A stretch of 64,000 nt of DNA from assembly GCA_947167715.1 (NCBI GenBank), contig CAMVJD010000012.1, forward strand, positions 1-64,000. The letters are read 5' to 3'. A model generated the notes under the pieces. It was not told the DNA's origin. It did not search any database and saw nothing but the letters and a program-made list of their open reading frames with translations. The stretch comes from an uncultured Eubacteriaceae bacterium (lineage in GTDB: Bacteria > Bacillota > Clostridia > Lachnospirales > CAG-274). The translations under genes were made by a program, and so were the position numbers. Shown here one piece after another: positions 3,346-58,950 of this stretch. Numbering within the stretch: the first letter of the stretch is position 1; each line of letters begins with the position of its first letter.

Positions 3346-5198
3346 AATCTAAAATAGCTTTTATGATCATCTGCGGTGCGCTTGTCTTTGGTGTCGGCAA
3401 TAACTGTGCTTATAACTATATGCACTCACAAGCCACCGATATAGGCGGTAAGTTGGAAGATGTTTCAACAGGGCTTGAACGCATAGACAAAGAATTCTAT
3501 ATATTCGATTTAAAATCACTCGGAGCAGGCTGTTTATGCCTGTTTTTTTATTCCCTCGGCTGTATATATGCTATCTTTTGCAAAAGAAATACAATGCCCG
3601 GCAGGGAACACGGTTCCGCCGAATGGGGAACAGCAAAGGATATAGCAAAATTTAAGGACAGCAAATTTGATAACAATATGCTGCTTACCGCTACCGAGTG
3701 GATGAGCCTGAACACAAGGCAGACGATGCGTAATAACAATATTCTTGTTATAGGCGGTTCGGGTTCGGGTAAAACAAGATTTTTCTTAAAGCCTAATTTA
3801 TTGCAAATGCACTGTTCTTATGTAATAACAGACCCGAAGGGTACTGTACTTAACGAGGTCGGGAAGGTTTTAGCAGACGCAGGCTATAAAATCAAGGTAT
3901 TCAATACCGTGGACTTTTCAAAGAGTATGCACTATAACCCATTCACTTTTATAAAGACGGAAGCCGATATAAAGGTGTTTGTCGATATATTGATAACTTC
4001 AACAAAGGAAAAGGGCGAAAAATCATCAGATCCCTTTTGGGAAAATGCAGAAAGGCTGCTATATATGGCATTGATAGGCTACATAATCTATGTACTGCCA
4101 AAAGAAGAACATAACTTCGCATCTTTATTGAGTCTTATAAACTCAATGGAAGTAAGAGAAGATGACGAGACATTTATGAATGCCGTTGATTACGCCTTTG
4201 AGGAATTGGAGATAGGCACAAAAGCGTTTAGTGAAAAACGAAACAGACCTATTGGTGATGAGAGTAAAATTTTAGAGCCACAGCCCGAACATTTTGCCTT
4301 ATTGCAATATAAGAAATACAAATTGGCAGCGGGCAAGACAGCTAAAAGTATTCTTATTTCCTGCGGTGTACGCTTATCGGCATTTGACATCAAGGAAGTC
4401 AGGGATATGACAATGTATGACGAAATGAATTTAAGCACTCTCGGAGATGAGAAGCAGATCTTATTTATCGTTATTGATGATAAGGTCACTACATTTAACT
4501 TCTTGGCAAATATGATGTACAGCCAATTATTCAAGGAATTGTGCGATAAAGCCGATAACCACTACGGCGGTAGGCTGCCCGTACACGTCAGATGTATGCT
4601 TGACGAGTTTGCCAACATTGGTCAAATACCGAACTTTGAAAAAATCATTTCAATAATAAGGTCGCGCGAAATATCCGTTGATGTTATTGTCCAAAATATG
4701 GCACAGATCGAAGCATTGTACGACAAACAGGCAGGCACATTGGTCGGCAACTGTGACACTACTCTTTTCCTCGGTTCGGGAGAAAACTCCACTATGAAAA
4801 ATATATCCGAGAGAGTCGGTAAAGCTACCATTGACCACCGTTCAAGCAGTACCACAAAAGGACAGCAGGGTTCGTTCAGCCTGCAAAATCAGATACTTGG
4901 GCGTGAACTTATCACTCCCGATGAAGTGGGAAGGCTTAACAATAATGAGTGCATTTTATTCATCCGAGGTTTAAAGCCTTTTAAGTCCAAAAAATATGAT
5001 TTGACTAAACATCCAAACTATCGAAAAACAGGAGACTACAGAAAAGAATTTTTGTTTGACATAGGAAAATACAATGCCAAGCAAGAAGCAAGAAGGTCTG
5101 AACAGGAAAAATCAAGCAATGATATAAACATCGAAGATTATCTGCTTGACGATAAAGACCTTGAAATTTTGGAAAACAAATTACAAACTACGGGATAA
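3342..5198 (+). CDS. VirD4/TraG-type coupling ATPase (CD1115 family)
   Basis: 618 aa. Two N-terminal membrane segments (about residues 3-20 and 60-80), then the ATPase body: Walker A GGSGSGKT at 138-145 and Walker B around D421-E422 (MLDEFANIG), followed by the expected VIVQNMAQIEALY segment. This is the inner-membrane coupling protein that docks the relaxase-DNA complex on the secretion channel. It starts in an ATGA overlap with PcfB and is followed by a G-C hairpin with a T run at its stop codon, then the pilin gene. Length and motif order are normal for the family. Confidence 0.93.
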   Translation: MKSKIAFMIICGALVFGVGNNCAYNYMHSQATDIGGKLEDVSTGLERIDKEFYIFDLKSLGAGCLCLFFYSLGCIYAIFCKRNTMPGREHGSAEWGTAKDIAKFKDSKFDNNMLLTATEWMSLNTRQTMRNNNILVIGGSGSGKTRFFLKPNLLQMHCSYVITDPKGTVLNEVGKVLADAGYKIKVFNTVDFSKSMHYNPFTFIKTEADIKVFVDILITSTKEKGEKSSDPFWENAERLLYMALIGYIIYVLPKEEHNFASLLSLINSMEVREDDETFMNAVDYAFEELEIGTKAFSEKRNRPIGDESKILEPQPEHFALLQYKKYKLAAGKTAKSILISCGVRLSAFDIKEVRDMTMYDEMNLSTLGDEKQILFIVIDDKVTTFNFLANMMYSQLFKELCDKADNHYGGRLPVHVRCMLDEFANIGQIPNFEKIISIIRSREISVDVIVQNMAQIEALYDKQAGTLVGNCDTTLFLGSGENSTMKNISERVGKATIDHRSSSTTKGQQGSFSLQNQILGRELITPDEVGRLNNNECILFIRGLKPFKSKKYDLTKHPNYRKTGDYRKEFLFDIGKYNAKQEARRSEQEKSSNDINIEDYLLDDKDLEILENKLQTTG

Positions 5199-18465: not shown

Positions 18466-21400
18466 ATGGAAAATCAGAAAGAAAAAATCGCAAGAATAAG
18501 CGAACTTTTAGAGAATGAGACTTTAAAACTTACCCGTTCGCAGGATACTTGGCTGAAATATTTGGAGATTGCCGCAAGGTTATACAAGTACGATTTCAAG
18601 GACAGTATCATTATTGCGGCACACAAGCCAAACGCAAGTATGTGTGCGGACTTCAACCTTTGGAGTGACAAGCTGCACTACAAGATAAAGCAGGGAACAA
18701 AGGGCATACCGCTTTTAAGAGAGGTCAACGGCTATGTGAAGCCCTACTATGTATATGATATTTCCGATACGGAAAGGCAGAAAAACTCAAAAAAGGTAGG
18801 ACTTTGGCATATCAAGCCCGAAAACAAGAGAGCCGTGGAACAGCGTTTCAGCACCGCTTTCGGTGCGGTTGACGATAACTCAAACCTTGAAGCACTTATA
18901 AACAAGCGTGTTGATATGCTGCTTGATGCGAATATCGGTGCATATATTGATGAGGTCGAATATACTGCCAAAGGTTCTTTGGTAGAAGAACTTGACCGCC
19001 AAAATCTTGCAATTCGCTTCCGCAGCATCGTAGAGGAAAGCGTTAAAATAATGGTTTGCGAACGTGCAGGAATTGCCCGTGATGTAGATGAAGAAGCACT
19101 CCGATACATAGGCGATTTCAATACCGTTGATGTTATCACACAGCTTGGAACAGCAGTAAACGACACAGCAAGCACCGTTTTAAGAGAAATAGAAAAAGAG
19201 GTACGCTACTGTGAGAAATATTTAAACAATGAAAGGACTGATTTTAATGAGAGAGACAGTAAAGAACGGAATGAGGATGTTTTACAGTATGGAGAGACAG
19301 GAATGGCTGCCGCAGTACACGGAGGAGAACGATCTGATGTACAAACTCGACCTGAAAACAATGACATATCTGCCGTTGGTGGAAACAGACCCACAGGAGC
19401 CGTACACGCTGACGATGTGGGGACAGCGCAGGCTGACATACCTCAAAGAGAACAAAAAGGGAACGTATCAAAGGCTGATGATAAAAGGGCTTTGGGAACA
19501 TCTCGTAGCAGCGGACAAGGAAGCGAACAGGCTGGAAGATACGCTGATGAAAGAAATGGCGGCACGCGAGGGGATAACGGAAGAACTGAAACAGCAGGAT
19601 CAGATGAAATGGGTAGGACTGAGGAACGATCTGAAACAGAGAGTCCGCGAGATAGTATTGGAACAGGTAATATACGCATAAATACCGAGACGGCAGAGGA
19701 TAAAACCCCTGCCGTTTCTTCGGTTATACAGACCATTGAACTTGAAAAATACTCCGCACCCGATGAAAACGGCAGAGTTGAACGTGTCGGAATGGCTACC
19801 GCAGGAGAGGTTTTTGATAAACTTGAAAAGTATCTTAAAGACAATGGTATGTTACCCGATGACTATTTTTTAATGAGCCATCAGGTGTCCGAAGATATGG
19901 AAGTACCCCAATATGTGCAGTTTATTTGTCAGCCTTCTTGGGGCGAAAGTGAAGGAATATACCTTGACATCGCTATGGAAACAGCAAACGGCATTATAGA
20001 CTTTGCGACCGGCAAGACCCTTGAGGATAACTATGCCGCATTTAAGCGTATGGGCGAAATTGCTACGGAATGTAATATAATGCTGAACAGTAACGGCAGA
20101 AAAATCGAACGTGACGGAATTTCCACTCCCGAATATATTAAAAAGGTTACGGCTGAAAAAACGGAGCAAGAAAAACCCGCAAATGTTACGGAATACAAGA
20201 TATATCAGCTTAAAGACGACCCCGAATTACACGACTTGCGTTTTGAAGCGTACAAAAATCTTGATGATACATCCGACCCCGATATAAACAATTACGACCT
20301 TGTTTATGAGGGAAAACTTGAAAATATAAGCGGTTTTGATACAAGTGATATCCTTGAAACTTTGTATAAGAAATTCAATATCGACCACCCCGCCGATTTT
20401 ACGGGTCATTCGCTTTCAATGAGTGATGTTGTCGTTCTTGATGATAAAACGGCACACTATGTTGACGATATAGGCTTTGTGGAAGTACCCGATTTTCTTG
20501 TAGAGCGTGAAAAAGATTTGTCTTTGGAAACCGTTGATATTTATATCAATGCAGGCGCACAGCAGGTTGAAGAACTGAAAGAGCATTTCTCCAACAACGG
20601 TTACGATATACAGTGGGCAGATGATACACACTTTACGGTGGATAAAGACAATATTGCTTATATTGAAACTATACTTGCAGACAGGAATATTGCGTATTCT
20701 GTGAATGCCGAACTCCCCAAGCCCGAACAGGCACAGGAGAAGAATAAAAAAATAATCGGCAACACACCTTATCGTGCCATTTCCGATAAGACATACAGAA
20801 CAATGCCAAAAGACCGTGCGGAACTCGTTGCCAAGCGTTTTGATAACGAATTTATAGATTATAGCGGCAAGATAAATGATAACGGTTCTGTAACGCTTAC
20901 ATTCAGCAAGAATGACCTTGACGAATGTAACAAGATAATAAACGATGTTGCCGCACAGCAGGCAGTTGAGGAACACAGGCAGAAAACAAGGGAGTTGTAC
21001 AAGCCTATCAACGGCACCGACCTTGATAATCTTGAAGCCATTATGTTTGATGTGGTTCAGGGCTACATTGATGATGCCGACCTTGATATTAAAATCAAGG
21101 ACTTGACCCTTTACGGTTCTCGCAGCAGGGGCATTGAAAACGAAAACTCGGATATTGATATAGTTATCGAATATGACGGCTATATGAAAGAAGATGCGGT
21201 TTTCAATATCTTCAATGAGGAAGATTATCACTTTGCAGGCATTAAAGTAGATTTCAATCCTATTCACGAAGAAGAAACGGGAACGCTTGAGGAATATCTG
21301 CCCCGTGTGAATGAATATCTTGAAAATCAGCTAAAAGAAGCCGCAAAGGGAGAAAAATTCGCTGAAAAAACTGATAGAGATGATATTATCGGCAATACTG

Positions 21401-24400
21401 TTTTCAAGTATATCCCTAAAAAACACTATGAAAAGTTTGACAAAGACTTGGGGCTTGCTATTTCTGCGGCATTTACGGAACAGAACATAAAGCACAGCGG
21501 CAAAATAAACGGCGATACTGTAACTCTGACTATGAGTAAAAATGACCTTGAAAAGTGCAATGAAATAATTGCAGAGGTCAAGGCTAAATTTGAAGCCCCC
21601 ACAGTTACAAAACAAACTCCCGAACAGTCCTATATCATTTCCGAAACAGTAAAAGCCAATATGCCCGATCCCGATATGTCAGTAGAGGACAGGAATAACT
21701 TTGGTTACACCTATGAAGCAATGCTGCCTCTCACAGAAGAAACCGCTATTGATATATGGGAGAACAAAAATCTGCCTATATATCTTCTTTATGATAATAA
21801 CACGGAAAGTTTGGCAGAATCTATAAAAGATATTGAAAATCACGGCGGCATTTTCGGCATTGAAGCCCCCGATTGGGAGAAATATATATCTTCTCCCGAA
21901 TATAAAAATATGGAGACCGCCAAAGAGGTAGCAGCTGCACCCGTAACCAACGAGGAACATATACGAGGAATACCGAAAAGCATTGTTATAAAAGCCCTTG
22001 TACACGGAAGCGGCTTTGAAAACGGGAAATTCAGAATTGAAGAAATGTACAAGACCCAAAAAGATACAAAACAGCGTATATCAGCACTCAAAAACGAGTA
22101 CGGCATAGGCGGCTACGGTACACCTACGGATACCGTTGGAGATATTAAGGGACTTAATCACGATGGAAAAGGCTTGAAAATTGAATGGATAAGCGAAAGC
22201 GGCAAACTCAAAGGTATGCTTAAATGGAATGATGTTGACAAGGTTTTAAAAGAACTTGTCGAAAATGATATTTACATTACAAGTGCCGAGCGTGAAAAAT
22301 ATGAGCGTGAAATGTACGTCAAGGCACAAATAGACCTTATGAGTGAGGGCGATGTTATAAGCGTGAACGGCGAAAACTTCACTTTTGTCAGAAAGGATGA
22401 TGGCTACAGGATAGAAGTTATACCCGAAGATCCCGACTCCAATTTTTGCTATAACACCACTTTAGATAAAAATACCTATTATATCGACAACTTCCGTCTT
22501 GAAAGAAACGATTTTCAGATAAATGCCGCAGGTAAAGAAGAAAAAACAATTACCGAGCCTGCACCGCAGGCAAAAACGGATGATAAGATATATCGTTTCT
22601 ATCACGGGCGAGAGGTCGGCGAACTTAAAATGATGTTTCAGCCTGACCCGCACGATTTTACAACGGTATATTTCAATGCTGATACAGTAAGGCTTGCGGC
22701 ACGTATTGCCACTGAAAGTGGAGAAACAGATAAAAACCTGTTCTTTAAAATGATTGAAAGTTACGGCAACCGTGACAGGGTAAGTGATGATACACTTTTC
22801 TATATGAACGCAAAGAACGAGTTTGACAATAACATAGCACTTATGGAAGGACTGTCCGAAGAAAATATGCGGGCAGTCTTAAATTTTGCCCGGACAGGGA
22901 AACTTGAAATTCCGCAGGTGCAGGAAGAAACAGTTAAGCCTATCGTTCAGGAAACAGCAGAAGAAACGATTGAAAGCCCCATAGCAGAAGAAGTTGTTGA
23001 ACAGGACGTAAATTTCCCCAATACTATTGCCCACAGAAATTTTGTACATCTTCAGAAACTCTGCCCCGAAGTTTTCAGCGGCGAACACTCTGCCGAAAAA
23101 TACAAGGGCATAGACGGTATGGAGGACTTTTCCATAGAAATAAACGGCAATGAGCTGACCCTTATGCACACTTTCGTGCAAAACGGAGATCTGATGTATG
23201 ACCCTCGAATTGATTACAGAATAGATTTTGTGCTTCAAACGATACAGGCACTTAATTATGAAATGTCCTCAATGGGTCTTTATCAGGAATACCCCGAAAA
23301 CAGCAAGGGACAGCGTGATACAAACAATTTTACTGCCACTTGGATAAAAAATCTTGAAGATCAGAAAGACAGCAGATACTTAGCTTGGGCGGTTGAAAAT
23401 TTTGAGCATAACGGCGAGGAATACGGCTTATCGGTATACTACGATGAAAACGGCAATATAACCGAAATGCGAGGCGATGACGAAACTATTGAAGCCTACA
23501 AAACAGAAAAAGGTATTGTTGAAAACAATGGAAATACCAAACAGGAATTTTCCCCTCCCGAAGATGAAAAGGCGATACATTTTTACCGATACGGCGATTT
23601 TTACGAAGTATTTGGAGATGAAGCGATAGATGCTTCTATTGAGTTAAATTTGCAGGTCGTGAGCAGGAACGGCGAAACGATGATAGGTGTCCCCAAATTT
23701 TCATTGGACAGCTATATCGCCAAACTTGAAAACGCAGGTTATTCGGTTTCTGTATCGGAAAACACAAGAGAAGAACAGCTTGCAGTCCCCGATTTTAAAG
23801 TTGATTACAGCGAATGGAAAGTGTCCTCGAACCCTGTCGGAGATGAAATGATGTATTGTGTGTATCGTGATATAGACAAAAATCATACCGATTATTCAGG
23901 CAACAGACAAAATGCTATGACCTTTGTTTATGACAAAGAACTTTGCAGGCATATAGCCGAAATACTAAACAGCGAGAGAGTATCAGACCTTGAAACCGCA
24001 ACAAAAAGAGCTGCGGAGTTAGCCGATAAAGTAAGTACGATCGGCGGCAAACCCTTTGGCGAGGTATTTGATGCACTTGTAGCCCACAAAACAATCTATA
24101 TAAAAGATGTCCCTGAAACACCATCTTATATAAAAGACGCACGCGATCTGGAAATAAAAAATCAGCGTATCGTATGGGATAATGATACGTTCCAACTCCG
24201 TGGAGACACAAACAAAGGCAAGGATATGTATCTTAATAATCTTGGCAGTTCAGTAAAAAATGCTATGTTCTACATCAGTACAGAAAAGCTGGAAATAGAA
24301 AATATCAAATCCGAGAGAATTAAATCACACGATTTAAAAATCGGAGATATTGTAAAACTGCCGCCCGTTACTATGGTTTCCACAAGGGGCGATACAAAGA

Positions 24401-27400
24401 CTTTCCCGTCGGAATACGGGCTTGTTGAAAGCATTGACGATAGGATGATACATTTTCAAACCTATAAAGATGTCGAACTTACAAGCACTGTAGGTAAACA
24501 CGCCGTATCATTCGACAGCCTTGACCGTGATGGTTTTGAATATATCGGTACAAAAAGCGAAAAGTCGGTTACACCGCTTGAAACCGCAAAACAGCTTATA
24601 AGCGAATATATTGAAGCCGAATTTTCAACCGAAGAGGAAACCGCTACTCCCGATTTTACCGACCTTATCAGTATACCTTTGGGATATACAACGGCAGATA
24701 GTCCTCGTGACGAAGAAATAAGCGTTGAACCGTTTGCGGATTTGATAAACAGAAAAGTCTACACTTTTGTCGGTGATGTTCTTGCAAAGGAGACCTATTT
24801 TGAAACATCTAACGAATTAGAATTCTATCTTGCAAATATGACTTTCGGAGAACTGACCTATGTTGATGACGAAATGTGGGACAAGTATTATGAAGTCACC
24901 GAAAGAGAAGCCGCCGAAAGGCAGGTACAGGCTAAAGAACAGCCCAAAACCGCCGAAAACTTTGTGCTGACCGAAGAAAAAATGAATATCGGCAGCCGCA
25001 AGGAGCAATTTCAAGCCAACATTGAAGCTATAAAGCTGCTTAAACAGCTCGAAGCAGACAAGGCACAGGCTACTCCCGAACAGCAGGATATTTTAGGCAA
25101 ATATATGGGTTGGGGCGGTCTGGCGGATGCTTTTGACGAGAAAAAGGACAGTTGGGCGGCTGAATATGCGGAACTTAAAGAACTGCTGACACCTGAAGAA
25201 TACAAGTCGGCAAAGGCTACGGTGCTTAATTCGCATTACACCTCTCCCACAATTATAAATGCAATGTATAAAACGCTTGAAAGAATGGGTTTTAACGGTG
25301 GTACGGTTTTAGAGCCGTCTATGGGTGTAGGCAACTTTTTCGGTGCAATGCCCGACAGCCTTAAAAAATCAAAACTCTATGGTGTGGAACTTGACGATCT
25401 GACGGGTCGCTTTGCAAAACAGCTTTATCCCGAAGCAAACGTACAGATAAAGGGCTTTCAGAAAACAGCTTTTAATTCAAATTCGTTTGATTTGGCGGTC
25501 GGTAACGTACCTTTCGGCAATTATCGTATTTATGATAATGAATTACAATGTCACGATCTGATACACGATTACTTTTTCAAAAAGGCACTTGATAAAGTCC
25601 ACCCCGGCGGTGTGGTTGCATTCATTACCTCTATGGGTACTATGGACAAAACGAATGATGCCGTTAGAAAATATCTTGCGGAACGTGCAGAACTGCTTGG
25701 TGCTGTCCGTCTGCCCGATACGGCGATGAAAAACGCCAACACGGAAGTTACGGCGGATATTATCTTTTTAAAAAAGCGTGATGAAGTCCTCGACTTTGAG
25801 AAAAGCCCCGAACTTATACCCGATTGGGTAAACACAAAGCCCAATGCAGAGGGGTATGTTATAAACAGCTACTTTGCAGACAATCCCGAAGCTGTTGTCG
25901 GAGAACTTGACAGAGTATCGGGGCCTTTCGGTCCGAAGATAATCTGTAAACTCGGTGATGGACAGGACTTTACGGAAACGCTTGAAAGTGCTTTATCTAC
26001 GATAAAAGGTAACTTTGAGTATGACGAACTTGCAAACTCCGTTGAAGAAGAGATCGACCCCGATTATCTGGAAGTACCTTACGAGGGACACCGAAATTTC
26101 TGCTATTGTTTGGTCGATGATAAAATTTATTATCGTGAAAATCAAATGATGATACCGCAGAATTTTGAGGGCAAAAAAGCCGAAAGAGTCAAGGGAATGA
26201 TTGAGATCAGCGAGGTTTTGCAGGAACTTATCAAACTTCAAAGAGAAGATTATCCCGACGAGGATATAGCGGCACAGCAGGCTAAACTTGAAGATGTATA
26301 CACGAAATTTACAAAGAAATTCGATTTACTCTCCAAAGATGTAAACAAAAATCTTTTCAAAGAGGATGATACCTGCGAGCTTGTAACATCACTTGAAAAC
26401 CTTGACGAAAACGGCGAATTGATAAGCAAAGCCGACATTTTCACTAAACGAACAATCGTGCCTTATGTACCGCCGACTCACGCCGATACAGTATCGGATG
26501 CCTTAACTATCAGTATTTCCGAAAAGGCAAAGGTCGATTTGGAATATATGTCACAGTTATGCGGCAAAACTAAAGAAGAAATACTTGACGAAATGCAGGG
26601 TGTTATATTTGAAAACCCCACAACAGGCAAGTATGAAACAGCCGATGAATATTTATCGGGCGATGTCCGTGAAAAGCTGCGAGTAGCTTCACTTATGGCA
26701 GAAAGTAACCCGAAATATAACATCAATGTTGAATCTTTGCAGGCGGTACAGCCCGAAGAACTTACCCCGAAAGAAATATCCGTGCAGCTGTGTTCAACGT
26801 GGATACCTGTTAAATTTTATGAACAATTTATGTATGAAACTTTTGATACCCCACGCCGCTGCCGTTCAGAAAACAATTATTACGGCGGCAACCCTTTCGC
26901 AGCGGGAAAGAACCCTATGACCATTTCTTTGCAGTATGATGAGCGTTCCGCAACCTATGGCATATCTAATAAGGGTTCATCAAAAGCTGACAGCTATAAC
27001 ATAAAAGTAAATCAGACCTACGGCACATCAAGAGTAAATGCCTATAAGATTTTAGAGGATACCTTGAATAATAAAACAGTAGTCGTTAAGGACTATATCG
27101 AAGAACCCGACGGTAAGAAAAGAGCTGTTGTAAATCAAAAGGAAACCATACTTGCACAGGAAAAACAGGAGGAATTAAAGCAGTTATTCAAAGAGTGGAT
27201 ATGGCAAGACCCCGACCGTGCGGACGAATTGTGCGAGATATATAACCGCGAATTTAATTCCCTGCGCCCCCGTGAATATGACGGCAGCCATATAACTTTT
27301 GTAGGGATGAACCCGAATATCGAATTAAGGGAACATCAGAAAAATGCCATTGCACACACCTTATATGGCAGAAACACCTTGCTTGCTCACACAATGGGTG

Positions 27401-29874
27401 CGGGAAAGACTTTTGAGATGGTAGCCTCCGCAATGGAAGCAAAAAGGCTTGGCTTGTGCCACAAAAGCCTGATTTGCGTGCCTAAACACATCGTAGCCCA
27501 ATTCGGCAAAGAGTTTATGCAGTTGTATCCCAATGCAAACATACTTGTAGCGATGGAAAAAGATTTTTCAAAGAAAAACAGAAGAAGATTTTTTAGCCGT
27601 ATTGCCACAGGAAATTATGATGCGGTTATTATCTCTCACTCACAACTTGAAAAGCTGCCCCTTTCTCCCGAAAGGCGAATTGAATTTGTGCAGGGACAGA
27701 TAGACGAAATCACAGCGGCACTCGATGAACTGCGGATTATGGAAGGCAAAAAAGGCTTTACGGTCAAACAAATGGAAAATGAAAAAGCCAACCTTGAAAC
27801 AAAACTCGACAGCCTTATCAAAGAAGAAAAATATGATACCAACGTATTTTTCGAGGATATGGGCTTTGACAGAATGTTTATAGACGAGGCACACTATTTT
27901 AAAAATAAGCAATTTGTTACTAAAATGGGCAGAAGCGTTGCGGGTATAAATGCTTCAAGCGTATCTCAAAGAGCCACAGACCTTGAAATGAAGATAAGGT
28001 ATATGGACGAGATAACAGGCAGCCGCGGTACTATCCTTTCAACGGGTACGCCCATCTCTAATAGTATGTCGGAACTGTATATAATGCAGTCCTATTTACA
28101 AATGGACCTGTTATGCAAGCGTGGATTGCATATGTTTGATGCTTGGGCGGCAAATTTCGGAGAAACACAGCGTACATTTGAATTAGCACCCGAAGGCAAG
28201 GGTTATCAGGTAAAGACAAGATTTGCGAAATTCTTTAACTTACCCGAATTGATGAACCTTTTCCGCCTTTGTGCCGATATAAAAATGCCCGAAGATCTGA
28301 ACTTACCCGTACCTACAGCGGTAAGGGATGCAATAAAGACCGAAGCCAGCGTTTACCAAAAAGAAATGGTTGACGGGCTTGCCGACAGAGCAAAAGCAAT
28401 ACGAAACGGCAATGTTGACCCACAAACCGACAATATGCTTAAAGTCACCAACGAGGGGCGTAAACTTGCACTTGACCAACGACTGATGAACCCAATGCTG
28501 CCCGATGACCCGCAAAGCAAGGTCAATCTTTGTGTAGATAATGTTCTTAAAGTGTGGAATGACAGCAAGGATGCCCTCGGTACGCAGATGATATTCTGCG
28601 ATATGTCCACACCCAAAAATGATGGCGAATTTAATGTCTATGATGACATCAAAGGAAAGCTAATAAGTAAGGGTGTACCCGAAAATGAGATAGCTTTCAT
28701 CCACGACTGCAAAACGGACGAACAAAAGGCGGCATTATTTACAAAGGTAAATAACGGCGAGGTGCGTATACTGCTTGGCTCTACGCAGAGAATGGGTGCG
28801 GGCACGAACTGTCAGAAATTGCTTAAAGCAATACACCACCTTGATTGCCCTTGGCGGCCTGCGGATCTACAGCAGCGCGACGGAAGAATTATTCGTCAGG
28901 GCAATACAAATGCGGAAGTAAACATATATAACTATGTTACAAGCGGTACATTTGATGCCTACCTCTTTCAGCTTGTAGAAAACAAGCAAAAATTCATCTC
29001 GCAGATAATGACAAGCAAGTCACCGCAAAGAATAGCCGAGGATGTTGACGAAGCCGTACTGAACTATGCACAGATAAAAGCTCTCGCGGCGGGCGATGAA
29101 CGCATAAAAGAGCGTATGGACTTGGAAATGTCACTTACAAGTATAAGAATGGCATACGCTAATTTCCTTGATAATAAGCGTGATCTACAGCGTGATATTG
29201 TCAAGAAATATCCCGAAGAGATACATCGTATCAAGGAACGTATTGCAGGACTTGAAAAGGATGTCGCACTTGCGTCAAGTACAAAATCGGAAGAATTTAC
29301 GGGTATGACGATACACGGCAAGGTATATACCGACAAAAAAGAAGCAGGCGAAGCCCTTATTGAAGCCATTAAGAAAACAGGCATTGAGCAGACAGGTATA
29401 ACCATCGGTGAATACCGCGGCTTTGAAATGAAACTTGATTTTATCAAAAGCAAGGGTGCGTTTGCGGTCGTACTGCAAGGCAGTTTGGGTCACTTGGTAG
29501 AGATAAGCAACAGTGCAACGGGAAATCTCACAAGGCTTGATAATGAACTTAACAGTTTCGCCGAATACCTTGAAAACAACAAGGTAAAACTCGAAGAAGC
29601 GAAAAATCAGCTTGAAACAGCTAAATTGGAAGTTGAAAAGCCTTTCCCTCGCCTTGATGATATGCGCAGTATGGAACGCAGGCTTAACGAACTCAACAGG
29701 GAATTATCCATTGATAATAACAACGAGGCGGAACATACCGCCGAAAAAGACGAACCCGATATTGAAGAAAACGATATTGACGAAGATGAACTCGACAATG
29801 AAGAATACGATATTGACGAGGACGAACTCGACGAAGATGAGTACGAATATCGCAGTTCGGGCGATGCAAGATAA
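18466..29874 (+). CDS. Giant multidomain DNA methylase/SNF2-type helicase (LtrC/YodL class)
   Basis: 3802 aa, among the largest ICE proteins. Recognisable parts in order: LtrC/ArdC-like N-terminal region (1-250); low-complexity linker (about 255-410) that coincides with a nested TnpV gene; YodL-type domain (about 576-680, IYQLKDDPELHDLRF and HSLSMSDVVVLD); a nucleotidyltransferase-like domain (about 845-960, YGSRSRG then SDIDIVIEY); a MutS-domain-I-like segment (about 1700-1775, FYRYGDFYEVFGDEA); an adenine methylase (about 2163-2450, NVPFG at 2347-2351 as motif IV); and an SNF2/DEAH helicase (about 2945-3600) with HTMGAGKT, DEAH and QQRDGRIIRQGN. The tail is a run of Asp/Glu repeats. Probably processes or protects element DNA during transfer; exact role unknown. 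Confidence 0.88.
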   Translation: MENQKEKIARISELLENETLKLTRSQDTWLKYLEIAARLYKYDFKDSIIIAAHKPNASMCADFNLWSDKLHYKIKQGTKGIPLLREVNGYVKPYYVYDISDTERQKNSKKVGLWHIKPENKRAVEQRFSTAFGAVDDNSNLEALINKRVDMLLDANIGAYIDEVEYTAKGSLVEELDRQNLAIRFRSIVEESVKIMVCERAGIARDVDEEALRYIGDFNTVDVITQLGTAVNDTASTVLREIEKEVRYCEKYLNNERTDFNERDSKERNEDVLQYGETGMAAAVHGGERSDVQTRPENNDISAVGGNRPTGAVHADDVGTAQADIPQREQKGNVSKADDKRALGTSRSSGQGSEQAGRYADERNGGTRGDNGRTETAGSDEMGRTEERSETESPRDSIGTGNIRINTETAEDKTPAVSSVIQTIELEKYSAPDENGRVERVGMATAGEVFDKLEKYLKDNGMLPDDYFLMSHQVSEDMEVPQYVQFICQPSWGESEGIYLDIAMETANGIIDFATGKTLEDNYAAFKRMGEIATECNIMLNSNGRKIERDGISTPEYIKKVTAEKTEQEKPANVTEYKIYQLKDDPELHDLRFEAYKNLDDTSDPDINNYDLVYEGKLENISGFDTSDILETLYKKFNIDHPADFTGHSLSMSDVVVLDDKTAHYVDDIGFVEVPDFLVEREKDLSLETVDIYINAGAQQVEELKEHFSNNGYDIQWADDTHFTVDKDNIAYIETILADRNIAYSVNAELPKPEQAQEKNKKIIGNTPYRAISDKTYRTMPKDRAELVAKRFDNEFIDYSGKINDNGSVTLTFSKNDLDECNKIINDVAAQQAVEEHRQKTRELYKPINGTDLDNLEAIMFDVVQGYIDDADLDIKIKDLTLYGSRSRGIENENSDIDIVIEYDGYMKEDAVFNIFNEEDYHFAGIKVDFNPIHEEETGTLEEYLPRVNEYLENQLKEAAKGEKFAEKTDRDDIIGNTVFKYIPKKHYEKFDKDLGLAISAAFTEQNIKHSGKINGDTVTLTMSKNDLEKCNEIIAEVKAKFEAPTVTKQTPEQSYIISETVKANMPDPDMSVEDRNNFGYTYEAMLPLTEETAIDIWENKNLPIYLLYDNNTESLAESIKDIENHGGIFGIEAPDWEKYISSPEYKNMETAKEVAAAPVTNEEHIRGIPKSIVIKALVHGSGFENGKFRIEEMYKTQKDTKQRISALKNEYGIGGYGTPTDTVGDIKGLNHDGKGLKIEWISESGKLKGMLKWNDVDKVLKELVENDIYITSAEREKYEREMYVKAQIDLMSEGDVISVNGENFTFVRKDDGYRIEVIPEDPDSNFCYNTTLDKNTYYIDNFRLERNDFQINAAGKEEKTITEPAPQAKTDDKIYRFYHGREVGELKMMFQPDPHDFTTVYFNADTVRLAARIATESGETDKNLFFKMIESYGNRDRVSDDTLFYMNAKNEFDNNIALMEGLSEENMRAVLNFARTGKLEIPQVQEETVKPIVQETAEETIESPIAEEVVEQDVNFPNTIAHRNFVHLQKLCPEVFSGEHSAEKYKGIDGMEDFSIEINGNELTLMHTFVQNGDLMYDPRIDYRIDFVLQTIQALNYEMSSMGLYQEYPENSKGQRDTNNFTATWIKNLEDQKDSRYLAWAVENFEHNGEEYGLSVYYDENGNITEMRGDDETIEAYKTEKGIVENNGNTKQEFSPPEDEKAIHFYRYGDFYEVFGDEAIDASIELNLQVVSRNGETMIGVPKFSLDSYIAKLENAGYSVSVSENTREEQLAVPDFKVDYSEWKVSSNPVGDEMMYCVYRDIDKNHTDYSGNRQNAMTFVYDKELCRHIAEILNSERVSDLETATKRAAELADKVSTIGGKPFGEVFDALVAHKTIYIKDVPETPSYIKDARDLEIKNQRIVWDNDTFQLRGDTNKGKDMYLNNLGSSVKNAMFYISTEKLEIENIKSERIKSHDLKIGDIVKLPPVTMVSTRGDTKTFPSEYGLVESIDDRMIHFQTYKDVELTSTVGKHAVSFDSLDRDGFEYIGTKSEKSVTPLETAKQLISEYIEAEFSTEEETATPDFTDLISIPLGYTTADSPRDEEISVEPFADLINRKVYTFVGDVLAKETYFETSNELEFYLANMTFGELTYVDDEMWDKYYEVTEREAAERQVQAKEQPKTAENFVLTEEKMNIGSRKEQFQANIEAIKLLKQLEADKAQATPEQQDILGKYMGWGGLADAFDEKKDSWAAEYAELKELLTPEEYKSAKATVLNSHYTSPTIINAMYKTLERMGFNGGTVLEPSMGVGNFFGAMPDSLKKSKLYGVELDDLTGRFAKQLYPEANVQIKGFQKTAFNSNSFDLAVGNVPFGNYRIYDNELQCHDLIHDYFFKKALDKVHPGGVVAFITSMGTMDKTNDAVRKYLAERAELLGAVRLPDTAMKNANTEVTADIIFLKKRDEVLDFEKSPELIPDWVNTKPNAEGYVINSYFADNPEAVVGELDRVSGPFGPKIICKLGDGQDFTETLESALSTIKGNFEYDELANSVEEEIDPDYLEVPYEGHRNFCYCLVDDKIYYRENQMMIPQNFEGKKAERVKGMIEISEVLQELIKLQREDYPDEDIAAQQAKLEDVYTKFTKKFDLLSKDVNKNLFKEDDTCELVTSLENLDENGELISKADIFTKRTIVPYVPPTHADTVSDALTISISEKAKVDLEYMSQLCGKTKEEILDEMQGVIFENPTTGKYETADEYLSGDVREKLRVASLMAESNPKYNINVESLQAVQPEELTPKEISVQLCSTWIPVKFYEQFMYETFDTPRRCRSENNYYGGNPFAAGKNPMTISLQYDERSATYGISNKGSSKADSYNIKVNQTYGTSRVNAYKILEDTLNNKTVVVKDYIEEPDGKKRAVVNQKETILAQEKQEELKQLFKEWIWQDPDRADELCEIYNREFNSLRPREYDGSHITFVGMNPNIELREHQKNAIAHTLYGRNTLLAHTMGAGKTFEMVASAMEAKRLGLCHKSLICVPKHIVAQFGKEFMQLYPNANILVAMEKDFSKKNRRRFFSRIATGNYDAVIISHSQLEKLPLSPERRIEFVQGQIDEITAALDELRIMEGKKGFTVKQMENEKANLETKLDSLIKEEKYDTNVFFEDMGFDRMFIDEAHYFKNKQFVTKMGRSVAGINASSVSQRATDLEMKIRYMDEITGSRGTILSTGTPISNSMSELYIMQSYLQMDLLCKRGLHMFDAWAANFGETQRTFELAPEGKGYQVKTRFAKFFNLPELMNLFRLCADIKMPEDLNLPVPTAVRDAIKTEASVYQKEMVDGLADRAKAIRNGNVDPQTDNMLKVTNEGRKLALDQRLMNPMLPDDPQSKVNLCVDNVLKVWNDSKDALGTQMIFCDMSTPKNDGEFNVYDDIKGKLISKGVPENEIAFIHDCKTDEQKAALFTKVNNGEVRILLGSTQRMGAGTNCQKLLKAIHHLDCPWRPADLQQRDGRIIRQGNTNAEVNIYNYVTSGTFDAYLFQLVENKQKFISQIMTSKSPQRIAEDVDEAVLNYAQIKALAAGDERIKERMDLEMSLTSIRMAYANFLDNKRDLQRDIVKKYPEEIHRIKERIAGLEKDVALASSTKSEEFTGMTIHGKVYTDKKEAGEALIEAIKKTGIEQTGITIGEYRGFEMKLDFIKSKGAFAVVLQGSLGHLVEISNSATGNLTRLDNELNSFAEYLENNKVKLEEAKNQLETAKLEVEKPFPRLDDMRSMERRLNELNRELSIDNNNEAEHTAEKDEPDIEENDIDEDELDNEEYDIDEDELDEDEYEYRSSGDAR
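19247..19681 (+). CDS. tnpV: TnpV-family protein nested in another frame of the giant gene
   Basis: 144 aa, read in the +1 frame relative to the giant gene. Start 19247 is chosen because AAAGGA lies 9 bases upstream; an in-frame ATG at 19229 lacks a site. TnpV-family features are clear: TMWGQRRLTYLKENKKGTY, ITEELKQQDQMKWVGLRNDL and ending REIVLEQVIYA. Family function is unknown; the name comes from Tn4451-type elements. The matching stretch of the giant protein is Gly/Arg/Ser/Asp-rich and unlike its neighbours, which suggests the TnpV frame is the constrained one. Expression is not shown. Confidence 0.7.
   Translation: MRETVKNGMRMFYSMERQEWLPQYTEENDLMYKLDLKTMTYLPLVETDPQEPYTLTMWGQRRLTYLKENKKGTYQRLMIKGLWEHLVAADKEANRLEDTLMKEMAAREGITEELKQQDQMKWVGLRNDLKQRVREIVLEQVIYA
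29763..29850 (+). repeat. Short acidic coding repeats at the 3' end of the giant gene
   Basis: Imperfect tandem units encoding IDEDELD and related Asp/Glu strings (NDIDEDELDNEEYDIDEDELD) make a strongly acidic C-terminal tail. Repeat copy number is likely to vary between strains. Confidence 0.6.
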
Positions 29875-57135: not shown

Positions 57136-57801
57136 TTAAATAATGTTTGCTTGAAAAGCTATCGCCTTGCCAAGAATTCTGATACTGTCAAGGTCTCGTT
57201 TCTGATAAATCATATCGTTATATTTAGAATTTTCAGCCCTTAATATCAAGAGGTCCTGCTCGGAATAGTAGTAAACTCTTTTCAATGTTGCTTCGTTTTC
57301 TATGATTATAGCTGCTATTTCGCCGTTATCAACAGAATCTTGCTGCTTGATAAAAACAATATCCCCGTCATATATGCGTGCATTTATCATACTATCTCCT
57401 TTACAGCGGAGACAAAAATCTGCCTGAATTACATTTGTTTCACAGTATATACCGTGTTCCTCATCAGCAAATATAGGTTCGCCGCAGGCGATCTCTCCAA
57501 GCATTGGGACTTTTTTTGTAACCAACGGAAGTATATTATTGTAATAAAAATCAGTTTTTTTCTTTGGAACATCTTCTCCCATCAACCAAGCGGGATTTAC
57601 ATCCAAAGCCTCTGCAATTTTGTTCAGTTTATCTTGTTTCGGTTCAAATCTACCCGAAATATATCTGCTGATAGATGAAGCCCCAATACCTGTTTTAATT
57701 GAAAGTTCGGTAACAGTTGTCCCCGTATCTTCCATTATTTCTTGAAGTCTCGACACAAAATCTGCCACATCTTTCACGCCCTTTCCGTAATGTGAATTCA
57801 T
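57136..57801 (-). CDS. XRE-S24 (cI/LexA-like) repressor
   Basis: 221 aa if the ATG at 57801 is used; the -10 box of its own promoter overlaps that codon, so a GTG near 57777 is also possible. Residues 13-75 are an HTH (MEDTGTTVTELSIKTGIGAS, KTGIGASSISRYISGRF). Residues 95-221 are an S24 self-cleaving domain: likely cleavage at A105-C106-G107 (GEIACGEPI) and catalytic Ser137 (CKGDSMIN) and Lys174 (ATLKRVYY). It would repress the ICE's excision and transfer genes and be lifted by DNA damage (RecA) or an antirepressor. It is divergent from the 57944 gene with operators in between. Confidence 0.9.
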   Translation of the reverse strand: MNSHYGKGVKDVADFVSRLQEIMEDTGTTVTELSIKTGIGASSISRYISGRFEPKQDKLNKIAEALDVNPAWLMGEDVPKKKTDFYYNNILPLVTKKVPMLGEIACGEPIFADEEHGIYCETNVIQADFCLRCKGDSMINARIYDGDIVFIKQQDSVDNGEIAAIIIENEATLKRVYYYSEQDLLILRAENSKYNDMIYQKRDLDSIRILGKAIAFQANII

Positions 57802-57858: not shown

Positions 57859-57887
57859 TTGACAAACATTATTTCGAGTAGTATAAT
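57859..57887 (+). promoter_or_regulatory. Consensus sigma-A promoter of the 57944 operon
   Basis: TTGACA (57859-57864), 17-bp spacer, TATAAT (57882-57887). The palindrome TTTGTTC/GAACAAA (57891-57911) covers the expected start of transcription. Confidence 0.85.
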
Positions 57888-57943: not shown

Positions 57944-58234
57944 ATGGATAATTCAATTTTGGAAAAACATTCCCCCTGCATTGGCAGCAATGTTTTAGGC
58001 ATTGACGGATTTGAATGCAAGGACTCAATTTTCTGTATTATGACTAATGGCGACAGTAACTTTTTTTACTTTGGTATCGTGGAAGATTCGATTTTATTTG
58101 TAGATTCTGACCTCGATTTTGATGAGGGTATGATAAACGTATACTTGAAAGATGACGGAACGTATAAACTCTCTCGTACTGCGTTGGACAAAGAATACAA
58201 AGGTCGCGTTATAATGTCGGTAAATATTTATTAA
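57944..58234 (+). CDS. Hypothetical protein divergent from the repressor
   Basis: 96 aa, TAGGAGG site. Beta-rich (SNVLGIDGFECKDSIFCIM, SNFFYFGIVEDSILFVDSDL), acidic, no family recognised. As the first gene on the repressor's other side it would be switched on when the repressor is lost, so it might be an early excision or regulatory gene. That is inference from position. Confidence 0.65.
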   Translation: MDNSILEKHSPCIGSNVLGIDGFECKDSIFCIMTNGDSNFFYFGIVEDSILFVDSDLDFDEGMINVYLKDDGTYKLSRTALDKEYKGRVIMSVNIY

Positions 58235-58426: not shown

Positions 58427-58491
58427 GGGGAATCCGGCTACCGAGCAAGTGAGCCGAATGTGAGTTACCAAATAGCCGGAGGGGGTTCTCC
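58427..58491 (+). ncRNA. Structured RNA repeat, copy 1
   Basis: Closing stem GGGGAATCC/GGGTTCTCC with the conserved inner GCTA (58437-58440) and TAGC (58473-58476); conserved 32-base core CCGAGCAAGTGAGCC to TACCAAA (58441-58472); conserved bulge CGGAG after TAGC. The stem is 9 bp with two G-U pairs. Confidence 0.7.
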
Positions 58492-58519
58492 TAAAGTGAA
58501 ACGTTGATATGATATTTGT

Positions 58520-58574
58520 GTTCAGCTACCGAGCAACGGAGCCGAGAGTGAGTTACCAAATAGCCGGAGTGAAC
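58520..58574 (+). ncRNA. Structured RNA repeat, copy 2
   Basis: GTTCA-GCTA (58520-58528) pairs with TAGC and, after the CGGAG bulge, TGAAC (58561-58574). The core of 32 bases (58529-58560) differs from copy 1 at four positions only. Confidence 0.7.
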
Positions 58575-58674
58575 GCCGCTTTGTTATCGTGTCGATAAAT
58601 CATTCGTCTATCAATAAAACCATACCGAATGACACTTTGAACAATTCTGTTTTTTAAAACTTAATATATAAAAA

Positions 58675-58727
58675 TTCTGCTACCGAGCAACGGAGTCGAA
58701 AGTGAACTACCAAATAGCCGGAGAGAA
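58675..58727 (+). ncRNA. Structured RNA repeat, copy 3
   Basis: TTCT-GCTA (58675-58682) pairs with TAGC and, after CGGAG, AGAA (58715-58727). In its core AGT/ACT replaces AGC/GTT of the other copies, a compensating change. Its 3' half can instead pair with a downstream hairpin. Confidence 0.7.
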
Positions 58728-58768
58728 CAGCATTTAAGTCAATATCGTTTGATATTGGCTGTTCTCTC
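58721..58768 (+). promoter_or_regulatory. Long hairpin overlapping the third RNA repeat
   Basis: GAGAGAACAG (58721-58730) pairs perfectly with CTGTTCTCTC (58759-58768), with an inner CAATATC/GATATTG stem. It uses the same bases as the closing stem of copy 3, so only one fold can form at a time, as in a switch. Confidence 0.6.
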
Positions 58769-58950
58769 TATGCGTGTATGTTCTTTTCGGCTCTTTTTTT
58801 ATCCTATTTTGTGATGGCGGTCTTTCCTGCGTTGTTTAATTCAACCGCAAAGATAGATGCGGACAATTGCACAGCAATTGGCTTTTGGCTATGCCAAAAG
58901 TTGTGACAGCGCATAAGGAGAACACAAAATGAGGAGTGCAAGATCGCCGC

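Follow-up and report, generated by a model that had tools for sequence, protein, structure and literature searches.

An integrative conjugative element (ICE) of an uncultured Eubacteriaceae bacterium has three tandem copies of a structured RNA in its control region, and the reading that we favour, with a little better than even confidence, is that they belong to an RNA family serving as a mobile-element attenuator, in which a Com-like protein would trap the fold and let RNA polymerase pass. The switch would probably decide whether the next regulatory genes of the element turn on.

The RNA copies and their element context

In the window, that is the whole 64,000-nt stretch of DNA analysed, three copies of a fold of about 54 nt are found on the forward strand within 58427-58728. 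They occupy 58433-58486, 58521-58574 and 58675-58728, and are 81-89% identical, gap-free, over 54 nt. With up to three mismatches allowed, TACCAAATAGCCGGAG occurred three times in the window as compared with 0.23 expected, and a two-part pattern was found three times in the whole 3.2-Mb genome, always at this locus, whereas its backward reading had no occurrence in that genome. The three repeated RNA folds proposed in an initial annotation are thus borne out. Its statement that the outer stem differs in every copy and still pairs also held (about 10, 7 and 4 bp), as did the covariation that it saw in an inner stem (AGC/GTT in copies 1 and 2, AGT/ACT in copy 3). Single copies fold little better than shuffled sequence (z of -0.6 to -1.5 for the three window copies), and the evidence for the fold is therefore comparative.

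To the left of the copies are genes for a T4SS coupling protein (PF02534), a TraG/VirB4 P-loop ATPase, a topoisomerase and a TrbL-like protein, and to the right are two large serine recombinases. Within the control region of this ICE, as had been annotated, the copies are flanked by a Com-like zinc-finger gene (com) on one side and a sigma-like gene on the other (Table 1). From its sequence, the promoter is expected to start a transcript running through com, the RNA copies and the sigma-like gene. The ICE also holds an unusually long single ORF of 3802 aa (18466-29874, forward strand). A pemK RNA (RF02913; 59800-59895, forward strand; 39.4 bits, above the gathering score) sits between the sigma-like gene and the two serine recombinases, and no pemK toxin gene was recognised alongside it.

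Table 1. Features around the RNA copies, in window coordinates
Feature	Position	Strand	Remarks
Divergent CI/LexA-type repressor gene	57136..57801	-	Peptidase_S24 E=3.8e-23, HTH_3 E=3.9e-10 (Pfam)
Consensus sigma-70 promoter TTGACA-17-TATAAT	57859..57887	+	12/12 match; predicted from consensus only
96-aa ORF, first gene of the rightward transcript	57944..58234	+	No family
Com-like four-cysteine zinc-ribbon gene, 54 aa	58249..58413	+	Matches PHROG 6417 'translational regulator' at E=1.6e-4; putative switch trigger
RNA copy 1	58427..58492	+	P1 about 10 bp, P2, P3; R1 59.4 bits; without its own terminator
RNA copy 2	58518..58576	+	P1 7 bp GUGUUCA/UGAACGC, P2, P3; R1 64.0 bits; without its own terminator
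RNA copy 3	58675..58728	+	P1 UUCU/AGAA (4 bp), P2, P3; antiterminator form; R1 73.2 bits
Intrinsic terminator	58716..58800	+	MFE -33.1 kcal/mol, z=-5.29
Sigma-70 region-4-like regulator gene, 166 aa	59008..59508	+	PF08281 E=1.9e-6; proposed controlled gene

A fold supported by covariation

Read from the 5' outside inward, the supported fold has a variable P1, followed by CU/AG or CAU/AUG, a bulged A, CCG/CGG, an unpaired A and GC/GC, which form P2. Inside P2 are the loop CAA and P3, which is made of GGAGC/GCU-A-CC with a bulged A and then CG/CG, and ends in the loop AAAUA. Over 25 sequences 96.6% of cells were paired, with double changes at 7 of the 14 pairs (0/500 shuffles), and RNAalifold, unaided, predicts the same fold. 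A second set from outside the model, whose alignment was fitted to the model and in which a few rows are identical or closely related to the training set, gave 96.1% of cells paired and double changes at 9 of the 14 pairs (24 distinct sequences); the changes now include inner P2 pairs, where CCG/CGG is replaced by CAG/CUG and CCU/AGG. Across subfamilies, a direct count of pairing found P2 as CCG/CGG in 40 copies, CAG/CUG in eight, CCU/AGG in two and CUG/CUG, with a mismatch, in two. The pairing of P1 is real: contiguous pairs averaged 4.32 in 53 distinct copies against 2.34 (sd 0.21) when the 3' flanks were swapped among loci, and 0 of 2000 swaps gave as high a value.

The comparative evidence indicates that this is a structured RNA under selection. 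The initial annotation had said that it looks like a real structured RNA and had counted a lack of homologues with compensating changes as a refutation; covariation and the many homologues sustain the call, and dozens of such homologues were found. Its pairing scheme fared differently. The letters of the GCTA/TAGC stem are present, but only 69% of cells pair and there are no double changes, and the CGGAG that was taken for a constant bulge instead pairs with CU-A-CCG, so that both elements were rejected.

A terminator that shares a strand with the fold

In 56 of the 60 distinct copies, the P2 strand GCCGG(A)G is also the 5' arm of an adjacent downstream intrinsic terminator, whereas an overlapping terminator arose in 98 of 1120 controls (8.8%) with loop and 3' arm shuffled. 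The four copies without a terminator are all tandem members, namely the first two in the window and the second one at each of the loci L210 and L233, and copy 3 is the only window copy that overlaps one. There, the 5' arm of the terminator (58716-58729, AGCCGGAGAGAACA) is common to copy 3, and is followed by the 3' arm at 58779-58792 and a U-tract at 58794-58800 (UUUUUUU). The copy 3 fold alone reaches -10.8 kcal/mol versus -33.1 for the terminator, which is therefore the stable state, and the fold must be trapped in time if the terminator is to be prevented. The 3' arm of the terminator varies by subfamily along with P2 (CUCCGGC, CAUCCGGC or CAGGCG), and one strand is thus kept complementary to two partners.

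An attenuator is defined by two exclusive stems that share a strand, the later one with a U-tract, and this is the arrangement found. As judged from sequence, a terminator/antiterminator switch is well supported, and switching in response to a signal is predicted. Of the function first suggested, the structured RNA stands, while the choice among a ligand sensor, a protein-binding array and a processing signal is narrowed by the strand-sharing terminator to such a switch.

A further U-tract arm that complements either the 5' strand of P3 or the P2 strand was seen downstream in L092, L152, L182, L264, L267 and other loci; L092 exemplifies complementarity to the P3 strand (GAGUCGAAUGUGAAC / GUUUACAUUCGACUC followed by UUUUUUU), and the same was noted for window 58779-58800. 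It is possible that this arm is a second terminator, which would need the whole fold to be undone.

Com-like genes and other neighbours of the RNA

Of the 46 loci found through the RNA alone, 39 have a small CxxC..CxxC ORF whose end falls from -420 to +60 relative to the RNA, as compared with 2 of 606 random positions. The seven exceptions include two contigs that end early, one of them still showing the end of com, and one degraded com; in L006 and L014 Com is located elsewhere. Three exceptions (L014, L199 and L210) have a small ORF that lacks the cysteines, at most a putative relative of Com, for which profile comparison gave E values of 0.15 and 0.003. A conserved cysteine-free protein of 59 aa (MKR..IRDNRS..IKPRI.DY.R.DDG) replaces com upstream of the RNA in L014 (minus strand, about 3452-3647) and L199 (1322-1499). 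In all seven new loci of the phylum search a Com-like gene is directly upstream, one of them with the first CxxC lost, a cysteine being replaced. After the RNA, a sigma-region-4-like gene is found in 37 of the 46 loci, and before it in none; elsewhere the following gene encodes an HTH regulator, or is replication-like in a multi-copy family.

We class as Com-like phage regulators those proteins that match PHROG 6417 or 13819 and have four zinc cysteines, and both features were found. PHROG 6417 was matched by 19 of the 28 homologues (best 4.1e-19) and the gpCom family PHROG 13819 by four, while Pfam Zn_ribbon_Com (PF10122) was matched by only three of the 28 even at E 0.01, and the window protein scored 12.1 bits against its cut-off of 22.9. 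A PDB search with the Com-like profile returned generic zinc fingers only, with no specific relative. Mu Com is a zinc-finger RNA-binding regulator whose binding site, placed in a hairpin loop, is GAG(N)2CC or CC(N)2-3GAG (PMC6483171). Of these SELEX motifs, GAGNNCC occurred in 0 of 56 cores and CCN2-3GAG in five of 56, both at or below the shuffled expectation.

Since the RNA is downstream of com, it cannot control the transcription of com; yet com is the neighbour that stays constant, whereas the gene on the far side changes. Most simply read, this would mean that Com acts on the RNA. However, the Com proteins are divergent (22-41% identical to that of the window) and the RNA core is near-invariant, with no correlation between Com and RNA distances (rho 0.03), so that a more conserved reader, such as RNA polymerase, a host factor or a metabolite, could apply. 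We also counted against Com as the trigger the absent SELEX motif, the window protein falling below the Pfam Com cut-off, and the loci in which a small protein lacking the zinc cysteines takes the place of com.

Homologues and distribution

In IMG/VR, pattern matching returned 52 loci, some 40 of which are genuine, and a scan of GTDB species gave at least six further loci, all Bacillota among the matches listed; most GTDB matches were due to chance, and only those continuing CCGGAG were retained. The covariance model R1, built from 25 sequences, had matches in 10 of 392 genomes at the level of the order, 9 of 391 at that of the class and 8 of 299 at that of the phylum; the window's own genome is counted among these, as are a few matches that are weak or due to chance. 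This sparse distribution is as expected for mobile elements, and the homologues in the loci examined are in Firmicute phages and other mobile elements. Tandem copies also occur at L155/L156, L210, L233/L234 and L269. Two R1 matches, L201 and L212, were rejected as chance. In Blast searches, annotated phages gave a single related record, Syntrophomonadaceae phage PV036453, and plasmids gave none.

At the gathering threshold, Rfam 15 had no match at the window copies, in keeping with the first impression that no known family could be recognised, and none to the RNA in 19 homologous loci (129 kb). Matches below threshold (mir-6, AniS, snoRNAs; E up to 10) were at chance level, and the mir-6 match did point to the terminator.

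Searching with the Com-like profile finds more RNAs of the same design that are too divergent for strong R1 scores, including versions with RNA and terminator at 8-10 copies per genome in one family. In one bacterial family, L243-L246, L253-L255 and L260 (genomes G500, G605, G658 and G724) combine a 47-aa Com-like gene with a divergent RNA and terminator at 3 to 10 copies per genome, and in some a primase-polymerase-like ORF comes next; they probably make up a family of phage satellites or small mobile elements. At L225, L227, L247, L250, L251, L221 and L222, Com-like genes are followed by terminators and the sequence upstream of these resembles the RNA only loosely; such loci may represent additional families with this design.

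A proposed Com-dependent switch and its alternatives

The fold, the strand-sharing terminator and the gene order come from sequence comparison; binding by Com, the direction of its effect and cooperativity of the three copies we infer. GCCGG(A)G can pair backwards with CU-A-CCG-A-GC, giving the antiterminator that closes both the P3 hairpin and the conserved loops; alternatively, it can pair forwards, its partner then being the terminator 3' arm ahead of the regulatory gene. Upon relief of repression, the repressor-controlled promoter at 57859 would make a transcript in which com precedes the RNA. With little Com the terminator would win, and transcription would end near 58800; as Com accumulates, it would bind the emerging fold, trap it and block the terminator, and RNA polymerase would then reach the sigma-like gene and the genes beyond. 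Such a delayed-early switch would follow the logic of lambda N or of the LicT/SacY antiterminators. In the window, three binding folds ahead of one terminator may sharpen the response, and we counted against this model that copies 1 and 2 have no terminator of their own.

In the LicT/SacY/BglG systems, a small leader fold, the RAT, overlaps the 5' arm of a terminator and protein binding lets RNA polymerase through. The RNA reported here is likewise a small fold overlapping the 5' arm of an intrinsic terminator, with protein binding as a proposal, but the fold is another one, and a four-cysteine zinc ribbon and mobile-element genes take the place of the CAT domain and sugar operons. With lambda N/nut it would share a small protein from the early transcript that acts on RNA further along and opens downstream genes; lambda N, however, is processive and distant from terminators, whereas fold and terminator share a strand here. 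The resemblance to Mu Com and the mom leader lies in a small four-cysteine zinc-finger protein encoded beside the regulated gene, which in Mu binds an RNA hairpin (PMC6483171), but Mu Com controls the translation of mom, as opposed to a transcription terminator here, and its SELEX motif is lacking. Tn916 canT is a cis-acting antiterminator that controls element genes in an ICE (PMC11658703), though it is about 450 nt long and processive, needs no other gene of the element and has no known strand-sharing terminator. The conAn system of pLS20, compared by its description in PMC11658703, combines a protein and an RNA of a Gram-positive conjugative element in bipartite antitermination. Finally, riboswitches that terminate transcription have an aptamer-like fold with an overlapping terminator, but here there is no Rfam match, no metabolic gene was seen, and a small protein gene is constant upstream.

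The same switch could nonetheless be a riboswitch, its fold binding a small molecule or ion with Com as a mere neighbour, which we consider unlikely. Near-invariant unpaired nucleotides (CAA, ACCAAAUA) around two stems with an overlapping terminator are typical of the class, and the RNA is conserved far more than Com. However, where a riboswitch is a conserved aptamer in the 5' UTR of ligand-related genes, the neighbours examined are mobile-element regulators: in the loci examined, which are in phages or other mobile elements, the RNA is never ahead of a metabolic or transport gene, its constant neighbour com is beyond its control, and its core sequence shifts between subfamilies.

Less probable again is direct contact of the fold with RNA polymerase or Nus factors that would render the polymerase resistant to terminators, in the manner of HK022 put, EAR or Tn916 canT. 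The high conservation across hosts and the mobile-element setting would fit, and canT is a precedent for a cis-acting antiterminator RNA in another ICE (PMC11658703). Yet put, EAR and canT act on terminators elsewhere, and a processive antiterminator would not need a terminator built on the fold's own strand, as in 56/60 copies; com would also be left unexplained. We give a low probability to translation-coupled attenuation, by which ribosomes finishing com would cover the 5' strand of the fold, with the terminator being chosen as a result. The com stop is within about 10 nt of the fold, or inside it, in many loci (e.g. L146, L178, L166, L149 and L183), but it is 65-260 nt earlier for window copy 3, L148, L169, L152 and L056, and this mechanism would not require a conserved zinc-ribbon product. 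That no switching takes place, and that these are a recombination site acting at the DNA level or else plain terminators after com with conserved repeats in them by chance, is highly improbable even though every copy is in a mobile element and often in tandem, because the compensatory changes in P1, P2 and P3 and the matching change in the terminator arm point to selection on an RNA pairing that competes with the terminator.

Significance for mobile elements of Firmicutes

Motif lists given only in supplements, such as those of PMC8040213, aside, the papers searched describe neither the motif nor zinc-protein antitermination in phages. The RNA family is apparently undescribed, and its pairing with Com-like zinc ribbons in mobile elements apparently new, within the already known kind of terminator/antiterminator leaders. 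More broadly, and with confidence somewhat short of even, we propose that Firmicute phages, phage-satellite-like elements and ICEs use Com-family zinc ribbons as transcription antiterminators on a dedicated RNA family, so that a protein of 45-60 aa and an RNA of 54 nt would make up a lambda-N-like early/late switch in which tandem copies act as a multi-site gate. If the Com-dependent switch is true, a compact, conserved RNA with a tiny zinc protein before sigma-like regulators would be a common decision point for the timing of genes in Firmicute phages and ICEs that lack N- or Q-type proteins, and Com-type proteins would be extended from the control of translation to that of transcription. Annotators would gain a model for an RNA absent from Rfam and for small proteins commonly annotated as hypothetical.
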